NCBI GenBank assembly: GCA_902729315.2
Contig: LR746265.1
Location: forward strand, 6,373,892-6,437,891
Length of the DNA stretch: 64,000 nt
DNA from: Spirodela intermedia
Taxonomy: Eukaryota; Streptophyta; Magnoliopsida; Alismatales; Araceae
Reading direction: 5' to 3'
Shown here: positions 57,394 through 64,000 of the stretch, piece after piece
Numbering within the stretch: position 1 is the first letter of the stretch
Layout of the letters: each line of letters starts with the position of its first letter
The notes under the pieces: generated by a model
Database searches by the model: none
The model's input: the letters and a program-made list of their open reading frames with translations, nothing else
Told to the model about the DNA's origin: nothing
Made by a program: the position numbers and the translations under genes

Positions 57394-58181
57394 TAGTGCT
57401 CCGGGAGATCACCGTGGACGAGCCAAGGTGGAAGAAGAAGCTGGGTTTAGGGGTTTCTTCTCTCGCTCCTCCCCTTCTCACGCGTCCCCACATACTCTTG
57501 CTTCAGCACTGTGGCCCAATCCAGTAGGAGGAGTTTGGGCTAAGACAGATATGGGTCGGCCTGTCTGGGGGTATCTGGGCCAATTGCGATTGCCCCATCA
57601 ACCTGCTGCCATCGGATCGGATAGGCCGGCGTGATCGTGATGAGACGGGATCGACCCAATTGGCTTATTTATTTATTTATTATGGAGAATAAAATATACT
57701 GGGCAAGGGAGGCCACGCGTGTCAAGTCGCCACAGAAGTACACGTCTAGAGAATTATAAAATTATAAATCTATTTATATTCATTTAAAATAATTCCAGAA
57801 TTTTTGCATCAAAAGAATTCATTTAATCGATACGCTCCCTATAAAATGAGTGCGAACACGACCCGAAGACTCGTCAAATGGATCACGCGAGCCTCCTCCA
57901 CCCATTATTATACGCTTAACAGTCAACCGCGTCGCGACCAATTCAACGCCGTGGATGGAAAGGTCAACGGCTTCCTTATCATATATGTTCCCCGGCAAGA
58001 GCGACTTTTTTGGTACGTATGATTTTTTTAAAATAACGCGGGAAATATCCCAGAATGAGTAGTTAAAAACAAGAATGAATGATTCTGGGTGCCGCGAGAC
58101 GACTGAATTATGCGCTATCTAAAATGATAATTTTTTTTTTACTTTTGATAATTTTGATCGATAGATTAGAGGTGGATCGCA
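57394..58181. other. OXA1 promoter and 3' flank of the C2 gene
   Basis: About 790 bp containing the OXA1 upstream region (GC-rich near 57394-57650, then AT-rich with a TTTATTTATTTATT run at about 57666-57679). No gene is recognised. Confidence 0.5.
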
Positions 58182-58661
58182 TTACTTCATGCTCTCCCAG
58201 TTTGCGGCCAAAGAGGGCAGTGCAACTCCGGCCCCCGCCCACGGAAGCGCCGGCGGCGGCGGTGGCGGTGGCGGTGGCGCGGGCCGTACTCTGACGGAGA
58301 GATTAATAATCCCATTGTGGTTCCCGTGGGGGTCTCTGAGGCGGTAGCTGAGGAAGTGGAGGTAGCCGGCGGGGAGGAGGCCGCCGTGGAAGTCGGCGGC
58401 GGGGATGGTGACCCGGCCGAGGGTCCGCACGTCGGCGCCCGTCTTGCAGCGCACCTCCACCGTGACGGAGCGCGACGAGGGCGGCATCGCTAGTGTCAGC
58501 CGCTGGTTCCAGTGCGGGTAGCTGCCGCCGTCGGCGCGGAGGGCCGTGGTCGCCTGGTTCTGAGAGTCCGTCCGAAGCGCCACGAACGCGTTCTTCTTTA
58601 TCGGTCGCTGGCCCAGGCTCAGCTTCTCTGCCGACAGCACCGTGATGTCCAGAATCTCCAT
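58182..58661 (-). CDS. BON1-associated (BAP1/BAP2)-like C2 domain protein
   Basis: Single-exon 159-aa protein that is almost entirely one C2 domain. Family members BAP1 and BAP2 bind membranes and the copine BON1, and restrain cell death and defence. The protein reads MEILDITVLSAEKLSLGQR, PIKKNAFVALRTDS, YPHWNQRLTLAMP, VTVEVRCKTG, LGRVTIPAADFHGGLLPAGY and LHFLSYRLRDPHGNHNGIINLSVRVR, followed by a Pro-rich linker of about ten prolines and the short tail AANWESMK. The block PIKKxxF...GHLxFLSYRLRD..G..xGIVNLSV is typical of BAP proteins. The ATG at 58661 was preferred over the in-frame ATG at 58691 because MEI fits the family, and because a TATATA at 58697-58702 would place transcription near 58670. 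It is head-to-head with the COR27-like gene. Confidence 0.85.
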   Translation of the reverse strand: MEILDITVLSAEKLSLGQRPIKKNAFVALRTDSQNQATTALRADGGSYPHWNQRLTLAMPPSSRSVTVEVRCKTGADVRTLGRVTIPAADFHGGLLPAGYLHFLSYRLRDPHGNHNGIINLSVRVRPAPPPPPPPPPALPWAGAGVALPSLAANWESMK

Positions 58662-59401
58662 TCTCTCTCTCTTTCTCTCTCTGGTTTGCACCCTGGTATA
58701 TATTGAGGACAGGAAGAAGGGTACAGGAAAGGAGGGGGAAGCGTTAAGGAAATGAGGTTCGCCGCGTCGTCCACGTATGATGTACGCAGCGTGAAGCGGG
58801 CCCTAACAGCCGGAGCGAGAGATTCGTAACCCGACACGGCGTTGACTTTCTGGGGAACGACTCCCGGTCTCACAGCGGGCGGGAAACGTGTGCCCGTGCG
58901 TGTTTAATATGGTGAAATTGCGAATAGTCGGATTGGCTGTTCGGCGTCTGCGACATCATGCCACGCGCCATCTTGGCGCCTTCCCTCGACTAGCCAGCAA
59001 GATGCAGCGCGCATCCTGTGCTGGACATCAATGGCACGGCGACGATAGGAATCCGCCGGGAGGCGCAGGAGAAGCCGCCGTGGAGGGTATCTGTCGGTCA
59101 TCCTCTGAACCATGCAAGCAATGAGAGCACATATTTTGTCGCCATTTTTTATATTTTAATATTTTTCTTAGAATTATGGAATCTGGGAAAATAGGAAATG
59201 TCTCTATTTTGTCACGCTGATGAAGACAAATGTGACGTAACACAACGAGAGGTGAGAGAGAGACAGAGAGAGAGGAGGGAAGATGTCGACGTCACAGCGT
59301 TGGGATATTTATCCAGTCTGCCGCCAGATCGGAGTCTAGTCGACAAAACGCTTTTGGTTCTCTATTTTATCTGTCGCGATTCCCGAGATGGTCGATGATG
59401 A

Positions 59402-59410
59402 AAAATATCT
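59402..59410 (+). promoter_or_regulatory. Evening element (AAAATATCT)
   Basis: Exact match to the evening element bound by CCA1/LHY/RVE clock MYBs, 109 bp upstream of the TATA box of the COR27-like gene. A one-mismatch reverse copy (AGATATTTC) lies near 59445-59453. Arabidopsis COR27 and COR28 are clock-controlled. Confidence 0.6.
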
Positions 59411-59415
59411 GAGGC

Positions 59416-59421
59416 CACGTG
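59416..59421. promoter_or_regulatory. G-box (CACGTG)
   Basis: Palindromic CACGTG within GGCCACGTGGACG, 6 bp after the evening element. G-boxes are bound by bZIP (HY5, ABF) and bHLH (PIF) factors. The tight evening element and G-box pairing is typical of clock- and light-regulated genes. Confidence 0.6.
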
Positions 59422-59510
59422 GACGCCATAGCTCACCTGCTGCGAAGATATTTCACGGGGGCCGCTACATTATCGGCGCCAGGCTGGGTTTGTGGGGGCG
59501 GGGGCTGCCG

Positions 59511-59516
59511 TATAAA
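59511..59516 (+). promoter_or_regulatory. TATA box of the COR27-like gene (TATAAA)
   Basis: TATAAA 88 bp before the start codon at 59599, which predicts transcription near 59541 and a leader of about 58 nt. Confidence 0.6.
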
Positions 59517-59598
59517 GGGTTACTGTGGAAACGCTGCAGAGCCCCCGGGGGAGCATTCCCGCTTATTCTTCTGTGGAAGAGAGAAAGCCGATCAATCG

Positions 59599-60756
59599 AT
59601 GGAAGATCTGGTGGAGGAAGGCGGCTCTGGAGCGGCATGGACGGACGAGAAACACACCTCCTTCCTCAATTGCTTGGAGGACTCCTTCGTTAGGTGGATG
59701 ATGATGGGAGGAAGGCTCGGATCAGGCGTCACCAGGCCGGATGCGGAGCCTCTGCGGCTCGATCGGCACATGCCAGACGGTGAGGATTCTACCAGGGACT
59801 GCCGATCGCGCAAGAGCGGGAGCCAGAGAGCAGTGGCGCGCCACCGCCATGGTCGGACAGGTAGGATCCGGAGCCTGTGGTCCTCCGATGGTCTTTCCTT
59901 CTTCACATCCGTCCTATTGGAGAGCCTTTGCGTCTCCGATCTGTCCTTGGGAGATCGGAGAAATCACTGCGGGTTGCCGCCTTTGGGGCTGACGTGCTCC
60001 ACCGAAGAGTTTATCGTTGCTGTTACGTTTGACTGTTTAGGAGCAAGAGATTGGTTCCTGTTTCACCTGTAGATGAGGGAAAGTGGAATAAGATCACAAC
60101 CTTCATTACTGCTCACTTCCCTTCTTTTTTTCGTTATCTCATCTTTCGCCGACGAGAAGATCCGTCACGGAATCTGGATTACAACAATTCTGGCGATGGA
60201 TTGTCTCTCGGGGGGGAAGTGGGGGGGGGAGATTGGCACCACCTGACTACTTGTCTACTACATCTGCATCGCTGATCATCTTTTTCCTTTCGTTTCTCCA
60301 ACCCAGACATCGTGGAGAGTCACGGCAAGACAAGGAAACGCTGGCACCGGCGTCAGGCGGACCCTCAGCTGCAGGAAGATCAGGTTTGTTATCATCTGCC
60401 TTTTCATGAATGATCCCCGAGCCGATGAGACCGCCTTCCACGTTTTTGCGAACAACCCCACCAATAAAACTCTCCAGACCGTACAGACGTTTTGGGGTTT
60501 TCCCCAGATATGTCAGTACGGCGATCTTCCTTTTGGTTCTTCTTTTGCAATTGTAACCGACGTCGTCTGCATATGCACTCTCTCTCTCGCTCGCTCATTC
60601 TGACGAGTGATCTCGATCTCGTTCCCTGATTGTACCTGTTCCCTGCAGGTGGTTCCGAGATATGAAGGGACGACGAGCGAAGAGAACGGCAGGCCAAACC
60701 CTACGGATGCCAGGCTCTCCACCTCAGCTGATGACCGGCGATCGACGGAGAATTGA
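59599..60756 (+). CDS. COR27/COR28-like cold- and clock-regulated protein
   Basis: Small nuclear-type regulator of the COLD-REGULATED 27/28 family, which links cold, circadian and light signalling in Arabidopsis. Exons: 59599-59860, 60307-60383 and 60649-60756; GT-AG, in frame, 148 aa. The diagnostic motif is AAWTDEKHTSFLNCLEDSFV at about residues 12-31 (family WTDEKHxxYLxxLEASFV). The basic region KTRKRWHRRQ in exon 2 and the second family block EDQVVPRYEG across the exon 2/3 join follow. The ATG at 59599 was chosen because it lies 88 bp after a TATA box and begins MEDLVEEGG just before the motif; the longer upstream frame in this phase would add unrelated sequence. The last 17 codons including the stop (60706-60756) lie inside a large inverted repeat, so the C-terminal end may be repeat-derived or, conversely, the repeat's source. 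Confidence 0.82.
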
Positions 60757-61656
60757 GAGAAGACATTTGGCATTACTTTCCCAGAAGCAGCTGGTCTTGT
60801 ACATGAGAAGTAGACGCGTAGTAGGACCATCGAGTGGCCGCATCAGTTGTAGCCGTCGTGAGCCGTAAGCAGCTGGTGGGAACAAGGCTGCGGGCGGGGA
60901 GGGAGAGTCTCTTACATAATGCATCATTTACCGCATCTGTTGTAGCCGTGGTAGAGGGGAGAGAGAGAGAGAGAAAGAAAGTTTCTTACATATTTACCAC
61001 GATTGCCATCGTAAAATATCATAGGAAAATATCTTGTCGCTTTCATGGTACATCAACTAACGGTCTCTCTTGATGGCCGCGCCCGCATGTCATGTCGACA
61101 TGATTAATTCAAACGGTTATATATCGAATAAATGAGTGCAATTTTTTAAGATAAATATTAGCAAGTTTAGGTTTTCCTCACAAATTAATGGCACATTTTT
61201 CTTCTAATTATAGATCTCATGATCTTATGTGACAACTGAAGTGAAATGATAGCATTTGAGTGCATAAACAAAGAGAAAATATCCAAAGTTATGAAGAATT
61301 AATTGTTTTTGGCTCTATTATTGATATTATGGTGTGATTTCTATCTTACAATAGGTAGAAATTAGGTGTTAAGCCTCTTAAATAATCGGATCAATAGAGA
61401 TGTGAATGAGTAGGAAAATAATTACTACCCCCTATGAAAAACTTTGTATGCATACACAAACTTACATTCTCACCTGATGACAGTGACATCATTTCATGTC
61501 ACCATGATTATTTAGGACAATTATACATTGAATAAATGAGTGTAAATTTTAAGATAAATATTTATTATGTTTAAGAGATGGCCCAGCCGTTCTCCGATGA
61601 GCGGCATGTCCCCTAAGGTCAGCCATCTTCTAGAGTTTCACCGTCATGATTTTTTC
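60706..61656 (+). repeat. Inverted repeat, left arm (copy A)
   Basis: About 951 bp whose reverse complement recurs at 61751-62674. It begins GATGCCAGGCTCTCCACC inside exon 3 of the COR27-like gene, includes the stop codon and the 3' flank, and ends near TCACCGTCATGATTTTTT. Near-continuous identity, roughly 90% by eye, was followed along the whole arm. A 94-bp unpaired centre (61657-61750) separates the arms. Confidence 0.93.
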
Positions 61657-61750
61657 ATCCTAGGGTTTTACCAAATGAAGATGGCAATAGGTTAACGCTT
61701 CAAAAGCCAACCTGGTGTACATAGAGCCTGCTGACTTCGTACCGTAGGAC

Positions 61751-62674
61751 AGAAAAATCATGACGGTGAAACTCTAGAAGATGGCTGACCTCAAGGGATA
61801 GGCTACTCATCAGAGAATGGTTGGGCCATCTCTTAAACATAATAAATATTTATCTTAAAATTTACACTCATTTATTCAATGTATAATTGTCTTAAATAAC
61901 CATGGTGACATGAAATGATGTTACTATCATCAGGTGAGAATGTAAATTCGTGTCCACATACAAAGTTTGCTCATTCACATCTTTGTTGATCCGATTATTT
62001 AGCAGTCTTAACACCTAATTTCTGCCTATTTTAAGACAGAAATCACACTATAATATTAATAATAGAACCAAAAACAATTAATTCTTCATTAACTTTGGAT
62101 ATTTTCTCTTTGTTTATGCACTCAAATGCTATCATTTTACTTCAGTTGTCACATAAGATCATGAGATCTATAATTAGAAGAAAAATATGCCATTAATTTG
62201 TGAGGAAAACCTAAACTTGTTAATATTTATCTTAAAAAATTGCACTCATTTATTCGATATATAACCGTTTGAATTAATCATGTCGACATGAAATGCTGGT
62301 GCCGCCATCAAGAGAGATCATTAGTTGATGTACTATGAAAGCGACAAAATATTTTCCTATGATATTTTACGATGGCAATTGTGATAAATATGTAAGAAAC
62401 TTTCTTTCTCTCTCTCTCTCTCCCCTCTACCATGGCTACAACTGATGCAGTAAATGATGCATTATGTAAGAAACTCTCCCTCCCCACCCGCAGCCTATTC
62501 CCACCAGCTGCTTATGGCTCATGACGGCTACAATTGATGCGGCCACTCGATGGTCCTACTACGTGTCTACTTCTCTTGTACAAGACTAGCTGTTTCTGGG
62601 AAAATAATGCCAAATATCTTCTCTCAATTCTCCATTGATCGCCAATCATCAGTTGAGGTGGAGAGTATGGCATC
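61751..62674 (-). repeat. Inverted repeat, right arm (copy B)
   Basis: Reverse complement of copy A, 924 bp. Read on the minus strand it starts GATGCCATACTCTCCACC and still contains the gene's terminal codons and TGA in frame. Compared with A it lacks about 27 bp near 61960 and is rich in C-to-T and G-to-A differences at former CG sites. Confidence 0.93.
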
Positions 62675-63075
62675 AAGAGAAACCACTAGTTGATGTGCCA
62701 TGGAAGTGTCATCAACTTAATGAAATGTTGTCATCCAAGATATTTTCCTATGAGATTTTACTATGGCAATCACAATAAATATGTAAGAAACTTTTTTCTC
62801 TCTCTTCCCTCTACTAGAGCTATATTGATGTAGTAAACATTTTAAAAACTCCACCTACTACATGTTGTAAATAATATAGTATGTAAGAAACTTTCCCTCC
62901 CCGCCTTCAGCCTGTTCCCACCACCTACTTACGTCTTAGGACTGCTACAATTGGCCACTCAATGGTCCTACTATGTGACTACTCTTTTGTACAAGATCAG
63001 CTGCTTCTGAGAAAGTAATGTTGAATGTCTTCTCTTAATTCTTCGTCGATCAGCTGAGGTGGAGATCATGGCATC
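62675..63075 (-). repeat. Third, more diverged partial copy (copy C)
   Basis: About 400 bp in the same orientation as copy B, directly adjoining it. On the minus strand it starts GATGCCATGATCTCC, runs through TTCTTACATATTTAT and GGAAAATATCTTGG, and ends CATCAACTAGTGGTTTCTCTT, where copy B begins. It corresponds to the outer 365 bp of B, with small indels and inserted bases. The coding frame is lost. Confidence 0.85.
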
Positions 63076-64000
63076 TATAAAGTAGTGTGGATATCCCCCC
63101 CCCCCTACCTGAAGACAATCCATCACTATAACTATTGTGATTTCTTTAAGATAATAATAAACTATTCGGTGGAGTATAGTAGCTTCAACAATGGCAACTT
63201 GCAAGGATTTCTCTGATATCTCAATGACAGATTAGAGATGCAAAAGCTCTCCAATATAATAGATGGAAAGAAGAAAAGATTATTAGAAGACCACAAACTT
63301 ATAATAAATATGTAAACACATACTCACAATAATAGTGGAAACTCAATTTCTAAATATTAGTGAGTAAAATATAAGAGAAATCACTAAGCTATCAAGAATT
63401 TTGATGAAAATGACACCTCCACTAAATACCTTTAATCTACATCTCAACATCTTTGAGATGACCACACACTGGAGAGTTAATAATAGACTCTTTATTTTCT
63501 TCTATAAGGACTTCACATGCAATATAAATAAGAAGATAGACAAAAAAGAGAAAGAAAGTTGAAAAAAAAGAGAATAAAATCAAAAGAGATAAATTATTGT
63601 TGTTCATCATACTCATAAAAAAAGAAATATATGCTCTATTTATTGAAAAAAGTGAAAAGACCCTAAAAAGAAGTATTTTCAACAAACATACGGGCAAGCC
63701 CACACATCTTGGTGGTGATGGTTTCAACCACCCTCATTTTCCACTCTCTCTCCCTACTTGACCCCTAAATGAGTCAAAAGGATAAGGTGACAATTGTGAC
63801 ACTACTCCTCACTCCTCACATGTCCCCTGAACAAGTTAGACAAAAAGTGACTCCTCTCATGTCTTTTGAACAAATTAAATGTGATGGGTTGACACCATTA
63901 ACAAACTCTTTACCTTAGCAACCATCATTGTTGCATGTAGGGTCATCATTCATTTATACTCTAAGTTCTCCACTTTTTGTAAACTATTTACAACATAAAT
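63076..64000. other. AT-rich region, no gene seen
   Basis: AT-rich with a poly-C run at about 63097-63106. It resembles repeat or LTR-flank DNA, for example repeated CTCCTC and ACATGTC segments at 63800-63865. The longest minus-strand frame (63437-63727) is composed of low-complexity hydrophobic residues and is not supported as a gene. Confidence 0.45.

Follow-up and report, generated by a model that had tools for sequence, protein, structure and literature searches.

It is well known that plant gene silencing can be triggered naturally by long inverted repeats of genic origin, and a near-kilobase inverted repeat at the end of a gene raises the question of whether it acts on that gene, gives rise to a young MIRNA or is something else. 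The locus considered here lies near the end of a window of 64,000 nucleotides of Spirodela intermedia (contig LR746265.1, positions 6,373,892 to 6,437,891); coordinates count from the first letter of the window and run on past its end where features do so. The initial annotation, made from the letters alone, had derived the repeat from a COR27-like gene's 3' end and suggested that it may be a self-targeting siRNA locus or a proto-MIRNA. Among the literature matches listed, judged by title and the start of the abstract, no publication dealt with this locus.

The host gene is read on the plus strand, with coding exons at 59599-59860, 60307-60383 and 60649-60756 (148 codons plus a stop, the TGA at 60754-60756 in exon 3). 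Its joined exons translate exactly to residues 75-222 of the S. intermedia protein P0001, and both introns are bounded by GT and AG. We take the gene to be COR27-like from its resemblance; its product matched no Pfam family at E<=1, and protein searches returned the same four proteins each time, including two from S. intermedia and one from Wolffia australiana, none of them named COR27. An evening-element word, AAAATATCT, is found about 190 bp before the ATG (59402-59410, plus strand); evening elements are reported for the Arabidopsis COR27/28 promoters (PMC10315267). The same word occurs in arm A of the repeat (61026-61034, plus strand) and in the third copy, C (62738-62746, minus strand), and is missing from arm B, where it was destroyed by a change at 61033.

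The near-kilobase inverted repeat is real. Arm A (60706-61666, plus strand) starts inside the last coding exon, as previously noted, and carries the last 51 nt of exon 3, the 3' flank of the gene, about 1.3 units of a repeat that we call R and most of a fragment, T1; arm B (61741-62674, minus strand) is its inverted copy, whose gene-end part is decayed by C-to-T changes. A gapped local alignment of 60706-61666 with 62674-61741 pairs 933 bases, of which 865 are identical (92.7%); 55 of the mismatches are transitions and 13 transversions, and gaps take up 29 columns. A global alignment (60706-61667 with 62674-61740) gave 92.5% of 934, with 70 differences of which 15 are transversions. The gaps include one of 21 bp and one of 6 bp, and four ungapped blocks stand out: 60706-60882 with 62498-62674 (91%), 60885-61291 with 62090-62496 (96%), 61291-61410 with 61970-62089 (91%) and 61439-61666 with 61741-61968 (90%). 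Copy B had been described as a reverse complement around a centre of 94 bp; the orientation holds, and the centre, 94 bp by the limits chosen at that time, is 74 bp by the local alignment. A comparison of the window with its own minus strand (E<=1e-10), in a list from which the main palindrome was filtered out, returned four rows, all at this locus. The architecture is thus that of two inverted, gene-derived arms with a short spacer, in which gene sequence makes up only part of each arm.

Can one strand of this DNA form the stem of about 0.9 kb, holding the terminal codons and the stop, that had been envisaged? The folding predicted for 60650-62720 (2071 nt) reached -1544.5 kcal/mol, compared with -481 to -516 for five mononucleotide shuffles, and 893 of its 939 pairs join arm to arm, so that by this prediction a transcript of the region would form a long stem in which the COR27-like gene is represented by its final 17 codons, stop included. 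Sixteen helices of at least 21 bp sum to 729 bp, the longest being 104 bp. Of 942 registers of 21 nt, 241 are exactly the same in both arms. Among the 51 that touch coding sequence there is no exact match; allowing one mismatch admits 9 of them, allowing two admits 22 and allowing three admits 39.

Judged by its alignments, the stem is chimeric, composed of the gene 3' end, a local tandem repeat of about 400 bp and part of the 5' flank of a trehalase gene, the order along the chromosome being gene end, R, T1 and T2. Repeat R in arm A (61049-61573, plus strand) is about 70-74% similar to a tandem array of ~400-bp units at 68657-70300, outside the window, and contains an internal direct repeat (61049-61159 and 61453-61562, 75.7%). 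Beyond the array follows a gene whose product matches Pfam Trehalase (PF01204, E=2.5e-31). T1 (61575-61693, plus strand) is a 119-bp copy of 70988-71106 in the 5' flank of this gene (84.9%), and T2 (61704-61747, plus strand), mostly in the loop, is a 44-bp copy of its coding sequence at 71857-71900 (88.6%). A stretch of 25 nt is identical in arm A, arm B and the trehalase 5' flank (61616/71029).

Concerning the partial third copy reported earlier, it is present, with matches at 62671-62711 and 62736-63075; it is, however, the tail of an inverted pseudogene that reaches 68557, beyond the window. Copy C (62671-63075, minus strand) is an older inverted copy of the gene 3' end, 85.9% identical to arm A over 347 aligned bases with 81 gap columns. 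The pseudogene body (63082-63298, minus strand, resuming at 68234-68557 outside the window) covers most of the COR27-like gene: similarity is 73.3% for gene 60706-61036 with 63075-62736, 70.8% for 60178-60242 with 63141-63082, 74.1% for 59876-60014 with 63295-63157 and 75.5% for 59553-59879 with 68557-68234, and no match in it was found for exon 2 or the first part of exon 3 (gene 60243-60698 or so). Its homology ends at gene position 59553, 46 bp before the ATG, so the upstream part with the evening element is absent from it; the 99 bp beyond its end contain neither a match to the upstream DNA of the gene nor an evening element. No other copy of the gene was found in the genome among the best candidates scored.

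The pseudogene is split by an old Copia-like LTR retrotransposon on the minus strand (63299-68235, 4937 bp, of which 63299-64000 is within the window). Its core LTRs (63303-63765 and 67610-68082) are 73.6% alike, and by eye it is flanked by a 5-bp target-site duplication, CAAAC/CATAC, where the gene has CAGGC. An open stretch at 64688-64882 matched RVT_2 (PF07727) with E=1.5e-4, under the curated cut-off; a second open stretch of the element gave two weak Pfam matches to cellular families, which we took as chance. The pseudogene, the retrotransposon, the trehalase pieces and the C-to-T decay were absent from the initial annotation, and much of this material lies beyond the window.

At the junction of B and C (62671-62674) a 4-bp microhomology, GATG in gene orientation, common to 60706-60709 and 61072-61075, was seen by eye; a fold-back template switch would be expected to leave such a remnant. 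We considered whether B and C have the same outer border at 60706 and rejected it, since C, judged by eye and across C-to-T changes, goes on resembling the gene for about 7 bp more. A common descent of B and C after their separation from A likewise found no support: of seven columns in which B and C agree against A, five are transitions with C or G in A, and 4 to 5 are expected by chance on a rough estimate.

The differences between the arms have a direction. At the gene end (60706-61075), 24 of the 28 differences have C or G in A and T or A in B, and none the reverse. Polarised by copy C over 346 gap-free columns, all 15 changes found only in B are C>T or G>A; in the same columns 7 changes are private to A and 44 to C, 28 of the latter being C>T or G>A. 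The affected sites at the gene end are 11 of 38 CG, 5 of 33 CHG and 8 of 109 CHH; CG differs from CHH with P=0.0015, and CHG does not differ significantly (P=0.18). Over the whole arms the C-to-T direction counts 45 against 10, weaker outside the gene end (21 against 10). Exon 1 of the pseudogene repeats the pattern (56 against 7; CG 27/50, CHG 14/44, CHH 15/102). The CpG observed/expected ratio is 0.91 for the gene and drops within arm A from 0.88 at the gene end to 0.68 in the outer part. Arm B has 0.51-0.59, copy C 0.28, the pseudogene 0.14-0.32, the transposon 0.33 and the R array 0.18; the stretch 70301-70987 stands at 1.23.

The C-to-T changes in the gene end of arm B, which affect CG sites most often, suggest a mark of past cytosine methylation. 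A general C-to-T bias with selection on arm A could account for part of the pattern, the CG preference excepted. We read the footprint, present in B, C and the pseudogene, as that of an island which was probably methylated for long, with its border inside arm A. Hairpin DNA in transgenic Arabidopsis is described as keeping its methylation in two RdDM mutants (PMC9263138), so that such a footprint would need no working RdDM. A bias towards changes that preserve pairing was not found in arm B: in a plus-strand hairpin 25 of its 45 C-to-T changes would give G:U pairs and 20 C-A mismatches (P=0.55).

The locus belongs to a known kind, the gene-derived long inverted repeat, and can be compared with several described systems. 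The rice glutelin locus LGC1 is reportedly a tail-to-tail arrangement in which read-through can give dsRNA, with a dominant silencing phenotype; the tail-to-tail copies and the possibility of dsRNA by read-through are what our locus would have in common with it, and we know of no silencing phenotype for the Spirodela locus. The PAI4-PAI1 repeat of Arabidopsis Ws and Cvi, for which siRNAs, methylation and silencing are reported as measured, is likewise a gene-derived, tail-to-tail inverted duplication (PMC13213937). The Spirodela locus differs in that a broken pseudogene takes the place of one copy, the only gene part within the palindrome is the 3' end, the arms are 92.5-92.7% alike and any siRNAs are putative. 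VIM4-VIM2 of Arabidopsis Cvi, described as arranged head-to-head, with 100% identity across the first exon and intron, and as acting in trans on VIM1, is similar in its close inverted gene copies and in a read-through stem-loop with a short centre (PMC13213937), but in S. intermedia the local pseudogene was the only other gene copy among the best candidates scored. The model of Allen et al. (as given in PMC3237417), by which MIRNA genes originate from inverted duplications, also starts from adjoining inverted segments of a target gene, with extended identity between arms and target; the stem here differs in including the unrelated repeat and trehalase sequence, and a miRNA-like duplex from it would be putative.

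The reading that we prefer, with a probability of about 0.6, is a gene-derived fold-back duplication of the PAI/VIM kind that now decays as a relic and silences little or not at all. A stretch reaching from the COR27-like gene in the direction of the trehalase gene would have been duplicated in inverted orientation next to the former; an older such copy would have become the pseudogene and then received the Copia-like insertion, and a younger or homogenised copy, arm B, would face the gene 3' end across a loop of trehalase fragment, the order of these events being our reconstruction. The similarity of A and B (92.5%), far above that of gene and pseudogene (74-76%), suggests that B arose in a separate, later event or was homogenised. 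On the inverted side, and in the repeats that follow it, CG sites would long have been methylated and C lost to T, the gene end of arm A being spared. Most transcripts of the gene probably terminate within arm A, which would make the hairpin at most an occasional read-through product: AATAAA occurs at 61127 and 61531, in arm A and ahead of the loop in both cases, which argues against a transcript crossing the centre, although AATAAA by itself is weak evidence of poly(A) use. What RNA does read through would be cut, probably by DCL4, into 21-nt siRNAs that would act post-transcriptionally on the gene's own 3' UTR.

Several observations weigh against this relic. A C-to-T bias can arise without methylation, the CHG excess is not significant, the direction outside the gene end is only 21 against 10, and transversions make up 15 of the 70 differences. 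A tract at 61090-61289 has only 3 differences between A and B in 200 positions (P=0.0054, 5000 composition-aware permutations), which hints at recent conversion or homogenisation, so that the arms may be more than a relic. Moreover, comparable inverted repeats of Arabidopsis are reported to produce siRNAs (PMC13213937).

This last point leads to the alternative that comes closest, an active self-silencing siRNA locus of the PAI4-PAI1 or VIM4-VIM2 kind, which we hold possible but tentative. A read-through or antisense hairpin of 0.9 kb would be diced and the COR27-like mRNA lowered, the trehalase mRNA perhaps also, through the 25-nt stretch shared by A, B and the trehalase flank. Besides the Arabidopsis precedents of related architecture, the 893 predicted arm-to-arm pairs and the 241 exact 21-nt registers speak for it, and siRNA output from the predicted hairpin is possible. 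As for the machinery, on which the preferred reading also draws, a genome search, judged on one exon of each, recovered DCL1, DCL3 and DCL4; it gave three Dicer_dimer matches and not a fourth. The sister species Spirodela polyrhiza is reported to be without DCL2, DCL3 expression, CHH methylation and most 24-nt siRNAs (PMC10989885), and according to a review its intact transposons still face residual RdDM (PMC13087006); with such a reduced RdDM machinery, a hairpin here would most likely feed DCL4. Against active silencing stand the two AATAAA words before the loop, the 0 of 51 exact registers touching coding sequence, the pseudogene end that offers no evident antisense promoter, the even split between G:U and C-A changes, and the gene end of arm A, which is not deaminated.

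A bolder version, which we consider quite improbable, would see one arm, eroded from C to T under methylation, as nature's equivalent of an engineered transgene, the G:U hairpin, in which every sense-strand C was changed and RNA pairing kept (PMC9263138). Here too C-to-T changes in one arm loosen the DNA inverted repeat, and the locus would escape self-methylation and still give 21-nt DCL4 siRNAs in a lineage for which little RdDM is reported, its chimeric stem tying a trehalase gene to a cold/clock gene; the 20 of 45 changes that would leave C-A mismatches set it apart from the transgene.

Identity as a proto-MIRNA gene under the inverted-duplication model is unlikely, and decidedly so. Both arms do have the extended identity with a putative target gene that the model requires (PMC3237417). 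The stem, however, is near-continuous over 0.9 kb and no short foldback, it sits in cis on its own target and gives no sign of selection for pairing, and Rfam returned no match at E<=0.1 in 58000-64000. Precursors of miRNAs are much shorter than this stem. Of the interpretation first offered, the gene-derived origin and the foldable strand are supported, the siRNA part is possible and the MIRNA part is unlikely.

Very improbable is an origin of the 3' exon from a transposon of the foldback or MITE type that landed at the end of the gene, to which the long inverted arms and short centre would be suited. It had been pointed out that many unrelated genomic copies of the arm would make it a mere transposon. 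In genome searches, which scored only the best candidates and skipped very common words, the arm gave nine matches including its own, all on one contig within about 10.4 kb, and R and T1 gave four and three, their own places counted, all in this neighbourhood. This confinement argues against a dispersed transposon, and at this search sensitivity a dispersed repeat was rejected. Neither dispersed copies nor a flanking target-site duplication were found, the 10-base flanks outside A and B being unlike by eye; an inverted gene copy adjoins the palindrome, and, as a weak point, 7 of 16 arm-encoded residues are identical in the Wolffia homologue. Finally, an assembly or chimeric-read artefact has a very small chance, since long-read fold-back chimeras can generate palindromes but would leave nearly identical arms, and these differ at 70 of 934 positions, with 21-bp and 6-bp gaps and a C-to-T direction.

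In the preferred reading of a decaying fold-back duplication, the sequence of the locus would record where the methylated side ends, namely within a hairpin arm and little past the stop codon of the gene. Since S. polyrhiza is described as having little RdDM (PMC10989885), a duckweed case would show how a palindrome behaves under such conditions. If siRNAs were found, the locus would offer a test, set up by nature, of whether DCL4 alone can silence a cold/clock gene.

Evening-element words (AAAATATCT) were located by motif match at 59402-59410, upstream of the COR27-like gene, at 61026-61034 in arm A, the copy that begins in exon 3 of this gene, and at 62738-62746 in copy C, the older inverted copy of the gene's 3' end. 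Arm B, the inverted copy of arm A, does not carry the word, which was removed by a C-to-T change. In the whole window we counted six matches to AAAATATCT against 1.39 expected, and six matches were reached in one of 100 shuffles.

Concerning the end of the gene, P0002, a second S. intermedia protein, was compared by eye with 60706-60760, and its frame shifts directly past ARLS; its tail is longer and is read onward through arm A, as though one base were absent at that point. Either the other assembly may carry a sequencing error here, or the difference may be genuinely allelic.

Past the window end (window-scale positions), a diverged tandem array with a period of about 380-400 bp occupies 68657-70300, with a CpG observed/expected ratio of 0.18; among the best candidates scored, part of this array used as genome-search query matched at this locus only. 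By eye, TAGCTCAG and GTTCGATTTC words are present at 70801-70920, and from these words the stretch resembles a decayed tRNA-derived SINE. The trehalase-flank piece (70988-71106; L010:3988-4106) contains, again by eye, a short ATG frame, MAKPFSDERLPP followed by a stop, which is likewise open in the arm A copy of the piece and is possibly an upstream ORF.
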